Below, piece after piece: positions 9,903 through 47,448 of a stretch of 64,000 nt of DNA. The stretch's first letter is position 1. The number at the start of each line of letters is the position of its first letter. Made by a program: the position numbers and the translations under genes. This DNA is from Candidatus Woesearchaeota archaeon (GTDB lineage Archaea > Nanobdellota > Nanobdellia > Woesearchaeales > GW2011-AR9), in the NCBI GenBank assembly GCA_018676855.1, contig JABHDY010000003.1, positions 1 to 64,000 on the forward strand, written 5' to 3'. The notes beneath the pieces are model-generated. The model was not told the origin of the DNA and did no database searches. It saw only the letters and a list, made by a program, of their open reading frames with translations.

Positions 9903-11408
9903 ATGCCAGAACTTACAAAAAGTGCCATTCTAAAATTCTATAAACGTAAAGATATTCAGGACGCTATCATCGAACATGCTTTACATAAAGAAATTGGGAT
10001 GCAGTTCGGCGTAGGAAATTTTGGAAAACGGCCAGACGTGTTAACATATCCACGGGACGTCTTAGAGTTAGCATTACAGGATGTTACGTCTCTTCATTCT
10101 AGTGAAGAAATATGGGAGAATCCTTTAGCAATAAGTAGCGATCTTACAAAGAAAGAACTTAATAATGTAAGAACAGGTTGGGACTTAATACTAGATGTTG
10201 ACTGTCCAGATTGGGAAATTTCAAAATTAACCACACATTTATTCATTAAAGCATTGAAAGAAAACGGCGTTACTGACATAAGTTGTAAATTTTCTGGTAA
10301 TAAAGGGTTCCATATTGGCGTACCGTTTGAATCATTTCCAAAAGAAGTTGCAGGGACGAAAACGAAAGATATGTTTCCTGAATGTCCAAAAAAAATCTCA
10401 TTATACTTATTGAACATAATTTCAACTCGTTATATCACTATAAAAGATAATAAAATAGTGTTTGACAATACATACGCATTTAGTATACAAGAATTAAAAG
10501 ATAAGTTTGGTGAAAGAGAGTTTCTTATTACAAAATGTGTACGGTGTAAAAAGAAAAGAAAAGTGCAAGAGGAATATGTAAATGAGTTTGTTTGTTCTAA
10601 ATGCGATGATACAATTAAAGACGAGAAAGAATTCATTACATGTGATAAGTGTAACATCCTAATGGAAAAGATTGAACGTAAAAATGTCTGTGACTGTGGT
10701 TCAAACGAGTATACAACAACATTTGATCCATTATCAATTTTAGAGATAGATACTATCTTAATCTCGTCACGTCATTTGTATCGGATGCCCTACAGTTTTC
10801 ATGAAAAGTCTGGATTGGTAAGTTTACCAATAGATCCTAATAAGGTAATGGAATTTGAAAAGGAAATGGCAATGCCACAAAAAGTCTTAACGCCAATGTT
10901 TACTTTTTTAGACAGAAACGTTACGGGTGAAAATTCTCGAAATTTGTTATTACAAGCGCTTGACTTTGAAGTTAAAAATGAGGACGATGAACGTGAAACT
11001 AAACAGTATGAAGAAATATCTATTACAAGTCCCATAACTGAAGAGTTTTTTCCTCCCTGTGTTCATTATATGTTGAAGGGTATAGATGATGGTAAAAAAC
11101 GCGGACTGTTTATAATGACAAATTTTTTAGGAAAATTAGGATGGCAAAAGAATGATATTAAACAGTTTATTACAAAATGGAACCAGCAAAATCCTGACCA
11201 GTTACGTATGTCGTACATAAATGGCCAGTTGCACAGTTTTATTCCAGGTGCGAAATTACCACCAAACTGTTCCAATGACGGATATTATACTGGCATAGGT
11301 ATATGTCATCCTGACGGTTTATGTAAATATATTAAGAATCCTGTAAATTATACAATTGCAAGGTGGCGTAGGCATTTACGTGATAATGAAGAGAAAAAGA
11401 GTGAATAA
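9903..11408 (+). CDS. Single-chain DNA primase (PriS catalytic core fused to PriL-like Fe-S domain)
   Basis: 501-residue replicative primase. The PriS part has the metal-binding pair in LILDVD (D98, D100), the SGNKGFH motif (131-137), and SSRHLYRMPYSFHEKSGL (288-305), the nucleotide-binding element. A zinc-binding insertion carries C212, C215, C231, C234 and further CxxC pairs. The C-terminus (about 380-485) looks like the PriL Fe-S domain, with C386, C456, C468 and C474 and GYYTGIGICHPDGLCKY near the end. Most archaea split PriS and PriL; fusions are known in Nanoarchaeum and other DPANN. It sits directly upstream of the S13 operon. Confidence 0.85.
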   Translation: MPELTKSAILKFYKRKDIQDAIIEHALHKEIGMQFGVGNFGKRPDVLTYPRDVLELALQDVTSLHSSEEIWENPLAISSDLTKKELNNVRTGWDLILDVDCPDWEISKLTTHLFIKALKENGVTDISCKFSGNKGFHIGVPFESFPKEVAGTKTKDMFPECPKKISLYLLNIISTRYITIKDNKIVFDNTYAFSIQELKDKFGEREFLITKCVRCKKKRKVQEEYVNEFVCSKCDDTIKDEKEFITCDKCNILMEKIERKNVCDCGSNEYTTTFDPLSILEIDTILISSRHLYRMPYSFHEKSGLVSLPIDPNKVMEFEKEMAMPQKVLTPMFTFLDRNVTGENSRNLLLQALDFEVKNEDDERETKQYEEISITSPITEEFFPPCVHYMLKGIDDGKKRGLFIMTNFLGKLGWQKNDIKQFITKWNQQNPDQLRMSYINGQLHSFIPGAKLPPNCSNDGYYTGIGICHPDGLCKYIKNPVNYTIARWRRHLRDNEEKKSE

Positions 11409-32111: not shown

Positions 32112-33302
32112 TTATTTTTGCAATTCTATTCCTAAATCTGCAAGGGCTTCTCTGACATCTTTTAATGACTTTCTTCCAAGTACTTTAGATTTAAGCAACT
32201 CAGCCTCAGTTATTCTTGCTAATTCACCAATAGTTTTAATATCAGCATTTTGTAAATAATTTGCAGTTCGAATACTCAATTCTAATTCATCAACAGATCT
32301 ATCTGCATGCTCTCCAAGTCCAAGTTCTCTTTTTTCTTCTAATTCCTTAACCTTTTTCTGAACCCCAGGGTCATATGGAGCAACAGAGAGAACTTCTTCT
32401 CTTATCCCAGGCATTAATTCTTGCCTCCATTGAGCTCTTTCTTCTCTACGTTGAACTTTATCAAGACGAGATTTAACATTTGCATCTGTGTAGAAACCTC
32501 TAACAGCATTTAATTCCTCAGATCTTGAGGTATGACGTAATTTACGTAATGCCACTGCTTCAATTTGACGTATTCTTTCTGATGTAAAATTAAAATTTTT
32601 GCTGATTTCATTAAGATTTTTAGGTTTCTCATATCCATCAAGACCAAACCGCATTCCAAGAACTCGTTGTTCTTTTTCATTAAGTGTTTTAAGAACATCA
32701 TGTACAATTCCTTTCTTTAAATCTGTCCATGCTAATCCACCATCTCGTACCTTATCAATAATTGTTGTTCCGGCTGTGCGAAATACTTTTTGTAATGCAA
32801 CTTTATCTTGTCCAAGATACGCGTCTTTAAGTGCTAATAGAACTTCTTTTGTAACAGTACCATTCACAGCTAAATGACTTTCACGTGATCCAAAGATTAC
32901 ATCAAATAACATATCGTATGAATTTCTTCTCTCCATATATTCAGGAAGGGCCGTTCTTTCAACAACCGCATCAATTCCTGGTTGATACAATACTTCTCTG
33001 ATTGTTTCATATACTGGTTTATCTTTTGTAATATCAACTAACCCGGTTGGTTCTGGATCAATATCAGAATCAAAAGTAAGTATTAAATGAGCAGCGTTTT
33101 CATCTTTATTATGAGGATTTGTTTCTCTATATGCTTCAACTAACGGATCTTGCCATTCACGTGAACGTCTTCCAACTATGCTCATTCTAGTGGTTGCATC
33201 AGAGACATCATATTTTCCTTTAATAATATCTGTACTAACTCCACATAAATACGTAAGTGCAACTTCCCGTTCTAATTCAGGTGATAATTTTTGTGTTGGC
33301 AT
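32112..33302 (-). CDS. Fusion of bacterial sigma-70 region 4 and RNAP alpha C-terminal domain
   Basis: 396 residues. Residues about 205-262 read [17 protein letters not shown]...[27 protein letters not shown], matching sigma region 4.1-4.2. The -35-contacting E242, R243, R245 and Q246 correspond to E. coli E585, R586, R588 and Q589. Residues about 335-396 match alpha-CTD without gaps (offset 80 from E. coli). R345, N348, G376, K378 and S379 equal R265, N268, G296, K298 and S299, the UP-element contacts; C269 is Y and E302 is D. A probable N-terminal helix-turn-helix occupies residues 1-50; there is no sigma region 2. It is likely a DNA-binding regulator made from bacterial parts. It stands alone, with no bacterial polymerase gene nearby. 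Confidence 0.8.
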
Positions 33303-33351
33303 AGATTAACAGAAACAGCATTTATTTATAAACTTTACTACTAAAAAATAA

Positions 33352-34164
33352 CTACAACCGTTTAATCTCAATACTTATTGCTTTATCATTTAACCTTATA
33401 TACCGTGGACATTCAGTATACTCTAAACCGTTCTCTTTACAATAGTCAATAATAGCACTTTTCGCTTCTTTACTATGATATCGTATAACAACAACAAATC
33501 CATTATCGTACGGATGTACAATATCAAAATCGGCTAAATCTTTCAGAACTTTATCACGTATCAATACCAATTTCGCAACACGGTGAGGCAATTCTTGAAA
33601 ACTGTCATAAATTTGTGAAATCATATCATCGTTCGTTAATGGTTTCATACCTCTGAAAACTTTATCCCACACTTTTTCTTCTCGACATGATACAAAACCG
33701 CCAACCTTTGCATTGATAGGTTTCCACCTGCCAAAACTACCAACAAGAATGTCTGCATGTTGCGGATCGCATAATGGTGTTCCAATAGCTCCTGACACGT
33801 CAACGATAACTAAGACACCTGCAGAATGACACAACTTATAAATCTCTTCAACCGGTTGTTCAGCAAAATATCCACCTGGTTGTTGGTATAACAGTGCACC
33901 GATCAAACCAGTTTCAATCTTTGTACGTAAATCTTTCATATCAATCCGAGCATCATTACACATGACAGGAACTGACTTTAATCCTTTCTTTTGTGGAAGA
34001 GTTTTATATGTTAACCATCCACCTTCCTGTGGAATACAAACTTTCCTATCTAAGGGTACAGCTGACAAAGCAGCATCGATAGCACTATTACCACGAGTCG
34101 TTATTTCTATGTATTGGTGACCAGTCATCCGTTGAATAAATCCTTTAATCTTATCGGCACTCAT
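33352..34164 (-). CDS. PLP-dependent fold-type I enzyme
   Basis: 270 residues. TTRGNSAIDAALSAV is the phosphate-binding start, VLVIVDVSGAIGTP carries the aspartate that contacts the pyridine ring, and GSFGRWKPINAKVGGFVSC supplies the Schiff-base lysine. The chain is short for the family (usually about 370-400), lacking much of an N-terminal arm. Aminotransferase, DegT-like or SelA-like activities are possible; substrate cannot be told. Cytoplasmic. Confidence 0.65.
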   Translation of the reverse strand: MSADKIKGFIQRMTGHQYIEITTRGNSAIDAALSAVPLDRKVCIPQEGGWLTYKTLPQKKGLKSVPVMCNDARIDMKDLRTKIETGLIGALLYQQPGGYFAEQPVEEIYKLCHSAGVLVIVDVSGAIGTPLCDPQHADILVGSFGRWKPINAKVGGFVSCREEKVWDKVFRGMKPLTNDDMISQIYDSFQELPHRVAKLVLIRDKVLKDLADFDIVHPYDNGFVVVIRYHSKEAKSAIIDYCKENGLEYTECPRYIRLNDKAISIEIKRL

Positions 34165-34189: not shown

Positions 34190-35308
34190 TTATGCTTTAC
34201 GTTTTCGTATAGTGTGAAACTTAGTTTCCCACATTAATCTATTTGTAAGTGATTGACGTGTAATAACACTAACAAGAGACTTTTTATGCATCACGGGAAG
34301 AATTTCTATATTTTGTGTAGTTATAAGTTTAAACGCTGTATATGCAGTATCTTTAAGAGAAACAGTTTTAATTTTGTGTAATGAGACAGATAATTGTTGT
34401 ACCGTTACAAGATCTTTCATCTTAGGAGAAATACGTTGTATCCTATTAATATCAAGTACACCAGAAAATGATTTTCCTTTTACAATAAATGTTGTTTTAC
34501 CACTATTCCCATACTTTTTCATAAAATCGACAAACTTTAACGTAGGAGAAACAATAGTTGGTTTTGTACTCAATTCTTGTACAGTAATTTTGTCAAGAAT
34601 ACTCTTAATAACAACTTGTTGATAACTAATATTGGCTATAAAATATAAGAAGCCTCCTAAAAGTACGAACCACAATCCTGTTCCTATACCGCTAAATAAA
34701 CTTACCAATCCTAAAACAATAAGGAAACCAGCAAAAAGTTTTCCAAGACCAGCAGCTATACGTGTTGCTTTTGTAATATCTTTATAGTACGCATAGAGGA
34801 TTGCACGTAATGCTCTTCCACCGTCAAGAGGATATCCTGGAACGAGGTTAAACGCTGCCAAGATAAAGTTTAACTGGTACAAATAAAATGTTATAGCTGT
34901 CCACATACCGTTAATGTCTAGAATGTGTAACACATAAAACACACCGCCAAGAAATATTGAAAATAATGGACCTGCAATGGCCATAAAAAATTCTGAAGAT
35001 GGTTTCATGTCTTCCTTTGATATACTAGCAACACCGCCAAAGAAAAATAACGTTATTGAATCAACTTTAATATTTTTAGCTTTTGCAACAAGTGAATGTG
35101 CTAACTCATGTAATAATACAGATACAAACAATAATGCAGACGCAACAATTCCCATTATCCAATATTCTGTCGTTGTATATTCGGGAAAGTAATGTGGAAA
35201 GAAAGATGATGCTAAACTCCACGCAATAAAAATGAAAACGAACCACCATGTATAATGTAATTTAACGTCAATACCAAATATCCTAAACAGTTTTGTTGCC
35301 CTATGCAT
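34190..35308 (-). CDS. Site-2 protease (M50) with CBS domains
   Basis: 372 residues. Membrane metalloprotease with LLHELAHSLVAKAKNI (HExxH) in an early helix and NLVPGYPLDGGRALRAI supplying the third ligand. About six membrane segments are followed by a C-terminal pair of CBS-like repeats (about residues 240-360). The archaeal CBS-bearing group cleaves membrane-bound substrates in response to nucleotide ligands in relatives. Followed upstream on the same strand by a dehydrogenase gene with three bases between. Confidence 0.88.
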   Translation of the reverse strand: MHRATKLFRIFGIDVKLHYTWWFVFIFIAWSLASSFFPHYFPEYTTTEYWIMGIVASALLFVSVLLHELAHSLVAKAKNIKVDSITLFFFGGVASISKEDMKPSSEFFMAIAGPLFSIFLGGVFYVLHILDINGMWTAITFYLYQLNFILAAFNLVPGYPLDGGRALRAILYAYYKDITKATRIAAGLGKLFAGFLIVLGLVSLFSGIGTGLWFVLLGGFLYFIANISYQQVVIKSILDKITVQELSTKPTIVSPTLKFVDFMKKYGNSGKTTFIVKGKSFSGVLDINRIQRISPKMKDLVTVQQLSVSLHKIKTVSLKDTAYTAFKLITTQNIEILPVMHKKSLVSVITRQSLTNRLMWETKFHTIRKRKA

Positions 35309-40131: not shown

Positions 40132-43100
40132 TTATTGAATGACTGTCGCTTTTTGTGTTTTTTCTAAAATTATTAGTTGATCCATGTATGCTCGAAGTAT
40201 TTCTTCTTGTTCACCTAATCCAGCTCCACCCCTATTAGAATCTGCACCTTCAATTCTGTTACCTAAAGTACGTTTCCTTTGTAATATAGGTAAACCAGTG
40301 TCAACATCAAACCCTTTAAACTTAAATGGAACAACAACATCTTCGACTATACCACCACTTAGTGCAAGATTTGTATGACGAAACGTTGATCCCATGAGTA
40401 TATTTTGAATTTCGATCTCAGGATGAAATTTATTAATAGTTGAAGCGACAAAACTATTTATAGTTCCACTGCAACACGTATCGACAAGACGAAGTCTTTT
40501 TTCCTGTGTTAACCCCTCAGCTACCATTTGTTTGTACGTTCTGTCTACCGCTGACCTAAAATCTGCACTTTTTTCATATAAATCGTTAAACTGTCTAAGT
40601 ACAATTTTGTTATATTCTTTTTCATATGTAGAAATTGTTAGACCCCGACGAGTAATGATAGTTTCTAATTCGGACCTTGTTATAGTCTCAAAAGGTATTT
40701 CAATACCTACTGATCTAAGAGAAGATTCTAATTCATCTTGAGCAACTCCCATCATAGTACGCATTCTATCTGATTGCGTGAATTCAGCTATTGTCGTTGT
40801 ATCCCTCGAAACATATGATGTTCTAACTTTACTTATACCAGAACCGAGAGTTGTTCTTAATTCATGTGCTGCACCTAAATGAAGACCATCACGTAAAAAA
40901 TGAACTGTTGTAAAACCAGGATCCAATTCGTCAAACTCCCCAAGAACTTCAATCATTTTTGGGATATCAATAGACTTTTTAGTAGTCTCATCGTATAAAT
41001 AATTATATCTTTTAATAAATGTCGCAATCTCTCCCTCATCCATGCCAATAGCTCGTGCCCTGATAACTGATAAATCTAATATTTTTTCTCTAGATAAAGG
41101 AACTGAATATCCTATTTCATGTGCGATTTCTAAAACATCTTGTTCAATACGTGCAGGGTCAATAGCAAGTCCAGCATCTTTACTATCAAACCGTTCAAGT
41201 GTAGCTAATGTTTTCTGACGAGATCTTTCAAGTAATGGTACGGGAACACCCATAGATTCTGCTTGAAGTTGATAATAAATACTTTCTTCACCTGGTTGTG
41301 GTACGGGCCGCGTAAACGTATCATCTGATTTACCTAACCATCCCCTTTCAGGATCAAATTTGTATAACTGTCCATCCAATGAGTATATTTGTTCAGTTTC
41401 ATCAAGAAGAACTGCACGTGATCGCACTTGAAGTTCCGGTCGCGATTCATGTAATGTACCCTCAAGAACGTCTGATAAAGAATCTCGTCTTGTTTTTAAC
41501 GCATATTTCATATATGCTTCTTCACTTCCACCAAACTCTAAACGAATCCGCGTAGCAACTTCTAACGCATCTTGTGCTTCTGCAGTCGGTTGCGCTTGTA
41601 AAGCTTCAATCCTTTTCGCCAAATCTGCTTGTTGTTTTGAAAGTGAATCGAATCTGAATGCATCACTCACAATAGCGTCTATTTGATGATCTGTAATACT
41701 TCGAAGTTGACGAATACCGTCTTCAACAACAGTAGGATTTCTAATAAATAAACGTCCCTCAGGCGTAATCTCAACAAGGTTTGCATATGCAGGATTGATT
41801 TTTCCACCAAACTGTGGATTTGTAAGAATTACTTTAAGTTCATCTTGAGTTACTATGTCATGAAGTGCCCTATACCTGCCCGTTGCACTTGAACCAAGGG
41901 ATGCTCCCTGGTCAATAAAGACAAACGCATCATCTTTATACATCATGTTCCACGCTGCACGATCATAATTTCCTATCAAAGAATCGTAGACAAATGCACC
42001 CTGTAAACTTTCATCTGCACGAATTGCTATTGGCATGGTTTGACTGGATGCAAAATCGTCAAAAAATTCAAGTACTTGCCTGACTTCACCATTTTCAAGT
42101 GCAAGAGATGTTTTTGGAGTTGGATGGCCTCCAAGTGCAAGAATTCGTTGACCAACATAATCTGCACGAGTGGTATGTTCTGGACCACCTTTAATTAACA
42201 CTTCTTCTCCTGTGATAGGATTTCGCCGCCGATAAATTGGATGTGTACTAATAACATCTTTACTTAAAGGGCCCAAATCGTCCCATTTAGTTACTATCTC
42301 TTCTAAATTATATTGTTGTGATTGTAACCCTTTAGAAGCCTGGACAGGCGAAACCTGAGATATCTCTGCAGCACTGAAAGGAACACCACTTTTAATTGGC
42401 GGTGATGATCCTTTTGCAAGTTCTTCTAATAATGATGTTCGTTCAGGACGATTTTCTATACCATACTTCACACGAAGAGCATCATCTGTCATAATCGTCA
42501 TGCCCTCATCACTTGTTCTAAAAAAATCGTCAACAAGTGGGTTACCAGCTTCATCTAAATCAAACGCCGTTACACGATATCGTGTTGCGCCTGAACTGCC
42601 AGGTATTCGTTCAATTGGAAGTGCATATCCCTCAACAGTAATCGTGCTACCCTCAATAGTATATCCCCTTTCAAGAGCCCATGCTTCATCAATTTCATAC
42701 CTGAACCCAGCAATTAAATCAAGTTCACGTCCATCTTCTAAAATAACTGAGCCCTTCGCTGAAGAACCGTACGTTACTCCTCGAGGATCTGTTCTTGATT
42801 GATAAACAAGTGGTTTATACTCAATCACGCCAATTTCGCGCAGTCTACCCTCTTGAGATAATTTTGTTAACAATGTATGAGTTTTTTCTGCTTGCGTACT
42901 TGATAATAGTATATCTATATCACCTGCAACATCATCGGAAAGGCCAAGTCGTGCAAATTCAGTCATCTCGTCTGCTTTTGCTACAGATCCACTAAATACG
43001 TAATGAACACCATTTTCTTCAAGAAGATCAGTTACCGGTTTTGCAATGGCTTTAGCCTGTTGTCGCGATGAAATAACAGAAATATCATCAACGGTAGAAA

Positions 43101-46100
43101 ATCGTGAAACAGTGGGTATGGTATCGGGAGGTAGATCCTGAACTCGTGGTTTTAATGCTGATTCAAACATATCATCTGCTTTCATAACCTCAGATTCAGA
43201 AAGTGACAGAGGACGATTTTCCACTTTTGCAAGTTCATCTTCCCAGCCAGGGAAAGAACTTATTTTTGCAATAGCTGCTGTTTCTGTGGCTCGTGCAGCT
43301 TGAGAGGCTTTTGTTGCAGCTCCCCCAATAGTATCTCGTGTCAATCCAATAGTTTGTAATGCTCTTTCAATATCTGCAATTTCATCAGACGATTTTGCAG
43401 TTTTTGATAATGTATCAAGACGTGTTAAAACACTTTCTTGTAATGCAGCTCGTTCCGCTGCTTCTTCTGCCGCAAGTACCTGTTTATATCCAACTTTACT
43501 TCGTGAAAGTAATGGTGTGGTAAGGAACTCACCAGTACGTGCAGCTGTTCTTTGAAGAACACTTCCCTCAGGAGCTATCCTCGCTGCTAATGTACTTGTA
43601 AGTTTACGTACTTTTCCTGGGGCTTTAACACCAAGAAGACCTGCATTTGCTACCTTTTCAAATTTAATTAAATTGTTTGTTGCTAATGCACTCTCTAATT
43701 CATAGAGCTTACCAACTTGTGAAATTTTTGAAGATTTACCCATAATTGCAAATGGCAATAATATTTCAAGAGTAGTTTCAACGCCAGAACCAACTCTAGA
43801 AATTGCAACCCCTGCTTTATTATCTTCAACCCATCCATCCGCGTCAGAATTTCCTTGTGCAGCAAGATGTTGCATTTCTTCAAATACTTGTGAAGTACCA
43901 CCATCTTCAAAATCTGCAATGTATTTTAATTTTTCAAAATCTGCTTGTTGACAATCAATACCACGTGATTTGCATGAGAATTGTGCTGACTGACTATAAA
44001 TGTTAGGAGATAAATCTTCAAAAGATACACCATTAGCAATTTCTTCTTGTGTTTCTTCAATTCCTTGAAGTATTTCTTGATTATATTCTACTTCTTTTTG
44101 TAACTTATCACTTTTTGAATCGCCAGAGATATAACTTATTCCACCTCTTACAGTTTTTATTGGAGTGACAAAGATTCCCTCACCAGCTTCAGGTGGAATA
44201 GGTATTTCAGTATCAGCAACAAGGTTATGAGCAAGAGCCCCTAAACTAACAACACTCACTAAACCTAATTCACGTGCACCCTTTGTCACAAGACTGTCTT
44301 GTTCTTCACGTTCAATTTCCCACTGTGCACGAACAATAGAAGTTGCCCTCTCAGCTTTCGCTATTTCTGCTGCACAAAAACCATCAAGATAACATGTTTT
44401 AGAACTTTTTACATATGCAACACCGGGAACAGTATCATCAACACCCTCAACTAATGCTGCCGCTTCAGCATAACGACCAGCATCTACTAAACGTATTGCA
44501 GTACGTCCCTTCGCTTCATCAATTGTATTAATAGAAACGGGAAATGAAGCTTCTTGTAATAGTTCTAATTGTTGTAACTTAAATTCAGCTCCAACTGCTT
44601 TATCATCAATTCGAGTAAATCCTTCTGCAGTTTGGATAGTTTCGCTTCTTCCAAGAGAACTATATATCTCTGGCAATATTGGTGAACCTTCGTGTGAAAG
44701 TAAAAATCTTTCAACCTTCGCTTTTTGTTTTTCTTGTGATTCACGTACTAATGATACAGATCTTGTATGACGTCTTTCTGCTTCTACCAATAGAGTATAG
44801 GTGAAATCATTTTCTAAATCTTCAGGAGGAATAGAACTAGGCAATCCCATTTTAGAGCTAAGACGCATCTGTCTAAGTTCTTGAGATATTTGAGCTAATC
44901 TTCTTTCTGCAATTGTAACATCTTGTTGTTGTTCTTGTAACTGTTTTCCCCATTCTGATGCAACTAATATGGCATCTTTCTCTTGAGGAGTAAGATCGCC
45001 TGACATAACACGAACAACTTCACGCTGATAAATTTGTGGTTCTAACACTGCTTGTTCCATGGACAATATCGCTAAAGATTGATCAAACCCTTCTGTATCT
45101 TGTCGTGCAGTTTCAGCAAGAATTTTTCCTGCTGCAAGAAACTGTTTTTGTCCTTCTTGAGTTTTTTCTTGCAGCTGAAGGTACAACGTATAGGGACGTT
45201 CATTTAATTGACGATGTTCTTCTAATTTTTCATAACAATCTGCCGGTTCAAAACATGAACCTGACTCGTCAAAGAAAAACCCATATCCATCCAAACTATC
45301 ACGTATCTGTACTACATCATCCTGTAGAACTTTTGTACCTTCCCATATACGATTAGCATATTCGGTATCATACATCATCAAACCGACATCAATTCCCGTT
45401 GCTTCTTTTATGGTAGCTTGAACTTTTGGATCATCATAACTTCCTTCAGGTGAAAACATAAATAATTCTGAAAGTTGACCGTCTTGATAACTTGTCATAA
45501 ATTTTCCCACTGCTTGTTTCTGTTGGTCGTCTAACACAAACACTTTTCCGCCTATAACGTCACGTATTCCAATATCTAAAGTGACTGGATTAAAATCACC
45601 GTCTCCATCTCGTTCATAAATTCCTAAAGTACCTCCTTCAAACGCAACAAGACCGTCATTACTTTCAATAGAAATGTCTGCTCTCTTAACAATTTGATCT
45701 TGTTTCGCAATTCTACCCAATTCAGACGCAGAAAATGAAGGTGTTAATTTTCCAGTATCATCAACAGTATATGTTACATGAAGTGTCATATCTTGTTCTT
45801 TTTCAGGGGACACAACATAGAAATCTTGTCGTTCTCCTGTTACTGGATGAACAAATTGTTGTTCCTCAATAACCTTGCCACCTGCAAGTTTCATACCAAC
45901 AACAGCGGCTTCTGTCCCAGAAGTACATCCTGTACAACGTACAGATATTGACTCAGCAGTTTCAGAAGAGTCTGAAATTTTCTGTTCAACAAAAGCACCT
46001 TCAGAACTAACAACATCTTTAGAGTAATCTTCATAATGTGCTTTACCACGCATAACAAACTTAGATCTTCCTAAAAGATCTTTTTCAGCATGGTATTCTG

Positions 46101-47448
46101 CACTTTCTTCAAGACCAGTAAATGACGGCCGTAAAGAACTTTTACCAATGGGATTTCCTGCTACAACTGTCTCTTCAAACACTGTAACAATACCCTTAGC
46201 AGAAATTGATCGAGCATCGTCTGATATCCATACTTGACCCATGTCACTTGGAAACGACCCACCTAATGGTTTTCCAGTGACGTACGGAGAAGAATCAGTT
46301 TTTTTACCGTTATACACAACAACATCAACACCATCTGTTCTAACAGAAATTGCATCATCACCATGAATTGACGTAAAAGAGGTTTCACCATCTTCCATGG
46401 GTTCTAACTGATATTCTGATCCAACTTTCCTAAATCTACCATCAGCAATTGCAGTATGTTCTTCATCAGGTTTCTCAATGCTAGATTGAATAAATTCTGC
46501 AGTTGCATCAAATGCAGTAACATCTCCATCAGCATTAAACTCAATAGTTCCTCTATGATTATCAAAGATAACTATTCCTCCCCGAATTAATGCATGACCT
46601 CCAACAACTAACCCGTCAACTGCAACTTTACTTTCTCCCGTTTTTCGTACAGAAACCCTATCGTATCCACCAAATGGTAGAACTATTGACGCATCATCAA
46701 CAGTAACAAAATAACCATTCACGTCTGGACTACGAGATATTTCCATGTCGCCAGAAAACGTTGTTTCTACAAGTCCATCTTCTTTAGGAATAAGTTCTTC
46801 TGCAACATCTTCTTCCTCAACAGGAACATCTTCTTCAACATCAGGTTCTTCGTCAGGTGGTGTTTGGTCCACTTCTGTAATTGTAACTTTTCCCCCTGAT
46901 GTCGCTTTAACTTTTCGCACACCCTTACTTTTCTGAAATTCATCTAATTTAATTTCTGGACCACCATCAAAACGTATACGTCCCTCTTCTCTATCGTACT
47001 CTGAAACTCCAGAATCCTGCAAATCTAAATCTACATCATGTTCAACTTCAACATGTTCGCTAAAAGAAGTCCTTGTATCTTGACTTTTACTAATAGTACC
47101 TCCATTCTCTTCAGATTCTTGTCCGCCAAACAATTCTCCTCGTACAGTATGACAATTTGAATCGTCACATGCAGTACTTGGATCAACTATTCGTTCTTCA
47201 ACAACATCACGAAGGATAGGATCGCTGTGAACCAATGCAGGTTGTCCTGCAAGTAGTTCCATAGCTTTATCCGGATCTGACTGTATTAATTCAACAATAC
47301 CTTCAGTAGTTCCTGGAGAAAAATCCGTTTCAAAATCTAAAGAAGTATCAGATTCAAAAACGGGTGCACCTTCATGATTTTCTGAAATACTTAATGGTAG
47401 TAAAAGTAACAAAACAAGTACAAGCACCACCACATTTTTAATTATCAT
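40132..47448 (-). CDS. Giant secreted protein with nucleotidyltransferase-like and HipA-like kinase-like segments
   Basis: 2438 residues with signal peptide MIIKNVVVLVLVLLLLLPLS. Residues to about 900 are acidic linkers and repeated beta-rich units resembling the middle of the protein at 24153. Residues about 900-1400 are helical. FSGSVAKADEMTEF (about 1485) followed by GDIDILLSS (about 1508) is the GS...DxD pattern of nucleotidyltransferases. IGNYDRAAWNMM (about 1828) followed by FVFIDQGASLG (about 1843) follows the HipA/FAM20-like kinase active site (GNxDR...N, then IDxG). RLVDTCCSGTINSF near 2323 is weakly reminiscent of phosphoribosyltransferase-type loops. A secreted multi-effector protein is inferred. 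It is encoded 15 bases after a pilin-signal gene. Confidence 0.65.
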   Translation of the reverse strand: MIIKNVVVLVLVLLLLLPLSISENHEGAPVFESDTSLDFETDFSPGTTEGIVELIQSDPDKAMELLAGQPALVHSDPILRDVVEERIVDPSTACDDSNCHTVRGELFGGQESEENGGTISKSQDTRTSFSEHVEVEHDVDLDLQDSGVSEYDREEGRIRFDGGPEIKLDEFQKSKGVRKVKATSGGKVTITEVDQTPPDEEPDVEEDVPVEEEDVAEELIPKEDGLVETTFSGDMEISRSPDVNGYFVTVDDASIVLPFGGYDRVSVRKTGESKVAVDGLVVGGHALIRGGIVIFDNHRGTIEFNADGDVTAFDATAEFIQSSIEKPDEEHTAIADGRFRKVGSEYQLEPMEDGETSFTSIHGDDAISVRTDGVDVVVYNGKKTDSSPYVTGKPLGGSFPSDMGQVWISDDARSISAKGIVTVFEETVVAGNPIGKSSLRPSFTGLEESAEYHAEKDLLGRSKFVMRGKAHYEDYSKDVVSSEGAFVEQKISDSSETAESISVRCTGCTSGTEAAVVGMKLAGGKVIEEQQFVHPVTGERQDFYVVSPEKEQDMTLHVTYTVDDTGKLTPSFSASELGRIAKQDQIVKRADISIESNDGLVAFEGGTLGIYERDGDGDFNPVTLDIGIRDVIGGKVFVLDDQQKQAVGKFMTSYQDGQLSELFMFSPEGSYDDPKVQATIKEATGIDVGLMMYDTEYANRIWEGTKVLQDDVVQIRDSLDGYGFFFDESGSCFEPADCYEKLEEHRQLNERPYTLYLQLQEKTQEGQKQFLAAGKILAETARQDTEGFDQSLAILSMEQAVLEPQIYQREVVRVMSGDLTPQEKDAILVASEWGKQLQEQQQDVTIAERRLAQISQELRQMRLSSKMGLPSSIPPEDLENDFTYTLLVEAERRHTRSVSLVRESQEKQKAKVERFLLSHEGSPILPEIYSSLGRSETIQTAEGFTRIDDKAVGAEFKLQQLELLQEASFPVSINTIDEAKGRTAIRLVDAGRYAEAAALVEGVDDTVPGVAYVKSSKTCYLDGFCAAEIAKAERATSIVRAQWEIEREEQDSLVTKGARELGLVSVVSLGALAHNLVADTEIPIPPEAGEGIFVTPIKTVRGGISYISGDSKSDKLQKEVEYNQEILQGIEETQEEIANGVSFEDLSPNIYSQSAQFSCKSRGIDCQQADFEKLKYIADFEDGGTSQVFEEMQHLAAQGNSDADGWVEDNKAGVAISRVGSGVETTLEILLPFAIMGKSSKISQVGKLYELESALATNNLIKFEKVANAGLLGVKAPGKVRKLTSTLAARIAPEGSVLQRTAARTGEFLTTPLLSRSKVGYKQVLAAEEAAERAALQESVLTRLDTLSKTAKSSDEIADIERALQTIGLTRDTIGGAATKASQAARATETAAIAKISSFPGWEDELAKVENRPLSLSESEVMKADDMFESALKPRVQDLPPDTIPTVSRFSTVDDISVISSRQQAKAIAKPVTDLLEENGVHYVFSGSVAKADEMTEFARLGLSDDVAGDIDILLSSTQAEKTHTLLTKLSQEGRLREIGVIEYKPLVYQSRTDPRGVTYGSSAKGSVILEDGRELDLIAGFRYEIDEAWALERGYTIEGSTITVEGYALPIERIPGSSGATRYRVTAFDLDEAGNPLVDDFFRTSDEGMTIMTDDALRVKYGIENRPERTSLLEELAKGSSPPIKSGVPFSAAEISQVSPVQASKGLQSQQYNLEEIVTKWDDLGPLSKDVISTHPIYRRRNPITGEEVLIKGGPEHTTRADYVGQRILALGGHPTPKTSLALENGEVRQVLEFFDDFASSQTMPIAIRADESLQGAFVYDSLIGNYDRAAWNMMYKDDAFVFIDQGASLGSSATGRYRALHDIVTQDELKVILTNPQFGGKINPAYANLVEITPEGRLFIRNPTVVEDGIRQLRSITDHQIDAIVSDAFRFDSLSKQQADLAKRIEALQAQPTAEAQDALEVATRIRLEFGGSEEAYMKYALKTRRDSLSDVLEGTLHESRPELQVRSRAVLLDETEQIYSLDGQLYKFDPERGWLGKSDDTFTRPVPQPGEESIYYQLQAESMGVPVPLLERSRQKTLATLERFDSKDAGLAIDPARIEQDVLEIAHEIGYSVPLSREKILDLSVIRARAIGMDEGEIATFIKRYNYLYDETTKKSIDIPKMIEVLGEFDELDPGFTTVHFLRDGLHLGAAHELRTTLGSGISKVRTSYVSRDTTTIAEFTQSDRMRTMMGVAQDELESSLRSVGIEIPFETITRSELETIITRRGLTISTYEKEYNKIVLRQFNDLYEKSADFRSAVDRTYKQMVAEGLTQEKRLRLVDTCCSGTINSFVASTINKFHPEIEIQNILMGSTFRHTNLALSGGIVEDVVVPFKFKGFDVDTGLPILQRKRTLGNRIEGADSNRGGAGLGEQEEILRAYMDQLIILEKTQKATVIQ

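Follow-up and report, generated by a model that had tools for sequence, protein, structure and literature searches.

The stretch of woesearchaeal DNA analysed here (the window, 64,000 nucleotides) encodes a protein in which sigma-70 region 4 is fused to the C-terminal domain of the bacterial RNA polymerase alpha subunit (alpha-CTD), the two being placed behind a lineage-specific helical N-terminal domain (Table 1). The region 4/alpha-CTD fusion is a recurring design in this archaeal class and in some viral contigs, and its sequence suggests that the archaeal protein is, on balance, probably a chromosomal DNA-binding transcription regulator.

Domain composition of the fusion protein

The presence of both domains in a single ORF, as read in the earlier note, was confirmed by Pfam matches far above the cut-offs, with Sigma70_r4 covering residues 203–257 (E 3.4e-14, 52.5 bits, cut-off 24.1) and RNA_pol_A_CTD residues 331–388 (E 1.8e-17, 63.3 bits, cut-off 23.8). 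NCBIfam agreed with Pfam, giving RpoD/SigA region 4 and the RpoA C-terminus, and the PDB sequences matched by the fusion in phmmer were RpoD/SigA region 4 and RpoA chains. Residues 1–195 gave no Pfam match. A core-binding region 2, already said to be missing on first reading, was detectable neither by Pfam in the whole protein nor by hhalign of the N-terminal profile. The alpha-CTD has the same fold and UP-element contact residues as its bacterial counterpart (PF03118), whereas the N-terminal dimerisation/assembly domain of the bacterial alpha subunit is absent by Pfam and NCBIfam, which matched the CTD alone, and region 4 is joined instead.

Table 1. Position of the fusion gene, its parts and its promoter element in the window.
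Feature	Position	Strand	Remarks
Fusion protein gene, 396 aa, ATG start	32112..33302	-	N-terminal domain, sigma-70 region 4, linker, alpha-CTD
N-terminal domain, residues 1–190	32733..33302	-	Predicted all-helical; without Pfam match
Sigma-70 region 4, residues 196–265 (Pfam core 203–257)	32508..32717	-	Pfam and residue table
Recognition helix of region 4, residues ~239–256
Linker, ~65 residues	32313..32507	-	AlphaFold2 model; predicted helical, lower confidence
Alpha-CTD, residues 331–394	32121..32312	-	Pfam, residue table, Foldseek
Archaeal-type TATA box TTTATAAAT	33324..33332	-	Starts 30 bases before the fusion ATG

In the AlphaFold2 model (nine family members; mean pLDDT 80.5, pTM 0.62) the folds of region 4 and the alpha-CTD were confident, the latter superposing on alpha-CTD crystal structures with an rmsd of about 1.0–1.4 Angstrom in Foldseek. 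No match of the whole model was as good as E 0.001. The N-terminal domain is predicted to be helical throughout its ~190 residues and to open with a three-helix HTH-like unit (residues 8–49); modelled alone, it matched PDB folds no better than E 1.6, and weak TetR-like matches were not significant. Long, low-TM matches of the whole model to sigma factors had raised the possibility that this domain is a decayed sigma region 2/3. This was rejected, since the N-terminal model alone gave it no support and the N-terminal profile, aligned by hhalign with 49 archaeal sigma proteins, matched their region 2/3 with a probability of 1%.

DNA-contact residues

Residues were compared using bacterial sigma sequences taken from the PDB sequence search, together with the E. 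coli residue numbering and alpha-CTD sequence. The equivalences proposed in the earlier note were upheld, with E242, R243, R245 and Q246 of region 4 corresponding to E585, R586, R588 and Q589 of E. coli sigma-70, and R345, N348, G376, K378 and S379 of the alpha-CTD to E. coli R265, N268, G296, K298 and S299. A further -35 contact, R584, had been overlooked; this position is occupied by Ser in the window copy (S241) and by Pro in G487, and the loss of R584 weakens the -35 half of the window copy. The alpha-CTD position of E302 is Asp in the fusion. Sigma R603 and alpha E261, which contact each other when region 4 and the alpha-CTD lie adjacent in bacteria, have counterparts in R260 and E341 of the fusion.

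Across the archaeal relatives, the positions of R265, N268, G296, K298 and S299 are all retained in the window copy, G487 and G317, and also in G486 except for an Arg replacing K298. Many contact residues are gone in one or both domains of G215, G184 and G175. Given the change at R584 and these losses, the site read must differ or binding must be relaxed. It is plausible that the fusion could read a bacterial promoter as one unit.

Archaeal setting of the gene

The host contig is 704 kb long and belongs to a genome of 0.94 Mb in 4 contigs (92.8% complete, 0.03% contaminated), whose size and gene content suggest a DPANN archaeon of the Woesearchaeota kind. Some 20 kb from the fusion, the window encodes subunit D of the archaeal RNA polymerase and an S4 of archaeal type, and TBP, TFB and a two-piece archaeal RpoB, which scores far under the bacterial rpoB cut-off, are encoded elsewhere in the genome. 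Together with the low contamination, these genes support an archaeal chromosome, in line with the initial assignment of the contig. TATA-like motifs among the window genes peak ~30 bases ahead of the start codon, the spacing to be expected if archaeal transcripts are leaderless; they also precede most fusion orthologs at ~-30, and because TTTATAAAT stands at ~-30 the fusion gene itself appears to be transcribed by archaeal machinery.

The bacterial type of both domains is what would be seen if a bacterial gene had been misassembled into an archaeal contig. This chimera reading is effectively refuted by the length of the contig, the low contamination of the genome, the matching GC, the nearby subunit D and S4 genes, the archaeal TATA box, and the full-length orthologs that other archaeal genomes carry among archaeal neighbours.

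Relatives in archaea

A search for homologs with the same fusion recovered it in ten more archaeal genomes, all belonging to this class, in most cases with the N-terminal domain. The family consists of the window copy and G487, G486 (partial), G317, G457, G215, G048, G225, G120, G184 and G175, of which G317 and G457 were added when the wider group was searched with a profile. A search at the level of the window genome's own family brought in G487, whose full-length copy is the nearest ortholog (38% identical over 410 aa), and G486, where the contig stops within the gene. Both Pfam domains were above the curated cut-offs in the window copy, G317, G457, G048, G225, G120, G184 and G175, which supports the regulator reading; in G215 the alpha-CTD was above its cut-off and region 4 under it (E 0.019). 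G175 is a short form without the N-terminal domain, and G184 is without most of it. Pairwise BLAST aligned the window copy with G487, G317, G457 and G215 across nearly the whole length. The N-terminal HMM was built from the family's own sequences, so that its matches are partly by construction; G317 was nevertheless recovered across positions 11–352 by a profile that did not include it. Within the genome contig collection, the archaeal N-terminal domain was found on the G317 contig alone (MAG archaeon SI047_bin88).

The fusion was present in 7 of 288 genomes of the order. The one congener genome compared (83% complete) does not have it, nor do most other genomes of the order, which suggests that it is dispensable in most lineages. 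The housekeeping neighbours are further support for a regulator: MetRS in the window, an adjoining MetRS and an EF-2 ~2.6 kb off in G317, and an IleRS near the fusion in G487 (EF-2 and IleRS named from sequence). Neighbourhoods across members show loose echoes only, namely MetRS in the window and G317 and a DegT-like gene in the window and G175. A separate ORF in G483 (L243:2334-2861), cut by the contig end, carries two alpha-CTD repeats ~80–100 residues apart.

Fusions on viral contigs

The fusion is not confined to archaea: the same two-domain design is encoded on at least eight IMG/VR contigs (L150, L152, L153, L154, L156, L158, L218 and L222; ORFs of 203–304 aa). Region 4 and the alpha-CTD follow in the same order as in the archaeal proteins, with linkers of 40–52 residues in the four measured. 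Unlike the archaeal fusions, however, the viral ones are without the archaeal N-terminal domain, for which a search of the viral contigs found no match, and three of the eight have an XRE-like N-terminal HTH instead. The three contigs examined look like bacteriophages, with phage helicase/methylase genes on L150 and L152 and an integrase-like gene on L222; the IMG/VR fusion contigs could include prophage pieces. Among named phage and plasmid records, none spanned both domains of the archaeal query and none reached 80% of the viral queries, while two unannotated fecal phage records aligned with 57–66% of the viral queries at about 28% identity.

The eight viral contigs, the XRE-like HTH in three of them and the phage genes beside the fusions on L150, L152 and L222 are consistent with a design of bacteriophage origin, the archaeal protein then being a domesticated phage regulator that now represses or activates genes in the ordinary way, or persists as a mobile-element leftover. 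Such an origin is nonetheless unlikely, given that the archaeal N-terminal domain is missing from every one of the viral proteins and that archaeal fusions with enough flank lie among housekeeping genes, with no obvious phage genes. The region 4 tree, with 36 of its 57 forks open, gives no direction of transfer.

Sigma-70 proteins in the same archaea

The statement in the earlier note that archaea lack both domains has to be corrected for sigma-70. DPANN archaea encode sigma-70 proteins (family fam00359, Castelle et al. 2021), which are reported to be particularly prevalent in Woesearchaeota and for which the authors ruled out mis-binning (PMC8204110), and a review credits Rinke and colleagues for the first archaeal sigma factors (PMC6126073). 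In the present analysis, sigma-70 region 2 was found in 102 of the 288 genomes of the order, the window genome included (examples are L005, L008, L009 and L021, some in frames >1000 aa). The archaeal sigma proteins and the fusion both have a bacterial region 4 and come from genomes of like kind; the sigma proteins of the order contain region 2 (-10 reading and core binding) and no alpha-CTD, whereas the fusion contains an alpha-CTD but lacks region 2. Most archaeal sigma proteins of the class retain the residues that read the -10 element (W433 in 42/49, W434 in 45/49 and Q437 in 42/49), W434 being retained although the host cells should have no bacterial polymerase. The window genome itself encodes a 476-aa sigma-like protein with regions 2 and 3 and a weak region 4 (C1:523692-525122, equal to L141:7693-9123, minus strand), its gene being flanked by one for a HerA-like ATPase and one for an HtpX-like protease; both W433 and W434 are gone from this protein.

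These proteins raise the possibility of a partnership, in which the fusion would provide -35/UP recognition and the sigma proteins -10 recognition, the two jointly directing transcription at bacterial-type promoters by the archaeal polymerase. Region 2 and the fusion co-occur, with region 2 in 6/7 genomes that have the fusion vs 96/281 that do not (Fisher p 0.009, uncorrected for kinship), and both the retention of the -10 residues among the 49 proteins and the archaeal genes flanking the sigma gene of the window genome fit a partnership. Against it stand the loss of both tryptophans and the weak region 4 in the window genome's own sigma-like protein, the case of G225, which has the fusion but no region 2 match, the uncorrected kinship behind the co-occurrence figure, and the lack of enrichment of sigma-70-like promoter pairs around the fusion gene (52 found vs 67.6 +/- 9.2 in shuffles). 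Nor is the archaeal polymerase known to contact region 4 or region 2. We consider a partnership rather unlikely. The wider proposal that these archaea read bacterial-type promoters, the one-chain -35/UP reader acting beside sigma factors whose -10 residues are intact so that the archaeal polymerase transcribes their own genes or genes acquired from bacteria and phages, is quite unlikely in our estimation.

Proposed function

Without region 2, the fusion should not be a sigma factor on its own. A major-groove -35 reader and a minor-groove AT-rich reader on a chain that has no core-binding region are most simply read as a site-specific DNA-binding regulator. According to this reading, the TBP/TFB machinery of the host cell would transcribe the gene; region 4 would contact a short -35-like site in the major groove while the alpha-CTD held the neighbouring AT-rich minor groove, and the N-terminal domain may serve in dimerisation, touch DNA at a third point or contact a partner. 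Bound near promoters, the protein could then repress or recruit transcription. Counting against this reading are the altered and lost contact residues, the lack of enrichment of sigma-70-like promoter pairs around the gene, and the rarity of the gene within the order. The closeness of both domains to bacterial RpoD and RpoA (53–59% for region 4) might instead point to bacterial DNA or bacterial RNA polymerase in a partner or host cell as the target. This is very unlikely: no secretion signal was seen in the sequence, and there is no known bacterial partner and no identified delivery system.

A sigma-type HTH acting as a regulator has a precedent in Gram-positive bacteria, where phage late-gene activators of the ArpU/RinA type use a region 4-like HTH without region 2. 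These activators resemble the regulator proposed here in using such an HTH without region 2 but, unlike the fusion, are not known to have an alpha-CTD. The parts of the fusion are already known and the design recurs in viral contigs; the fusion itself, which the earlier note held to be undescribed, was found in no paper of the literature searched, a search with most subscription papers and all preprints outside it.

Archaeal sigma-70 proteins have been on record for years, still without a clear idea of their role. A protein with the two upstream-promoter readers only separates the reading of bacterial promoter DNA from the binding of bacterial polymerase and, being small and conserved, can feasibly be expressed and tested directly. 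If the fusion binds -35/UP-like DNA in an archaeon, a bacterial promoter code would be in use within a TBP/TFB cell.

Neighbouring genes and other ORFs of the window

Directly upstream of the fusion lies a gene for a short DegT/EgtE-like PLP protein (33352-34164), a 39% relative of which sits 2.5 kb from the G175 fusion. The second gene upstream (34190-35308) encodes a site-2 protease (M50) that also matches CBS weakly, an arrangement that recalls SpoIVFB/sigma regulation; around the G317 and G487 fusions, no site-2 protease was seen. Further away, a 2438-aa ORF without Pfam match spans 40132-47448, and a 501-aa ORF at 9903-11408 that matches both primase subunits encodes a fused primase, in which the PriS part is followed by the PriL part.
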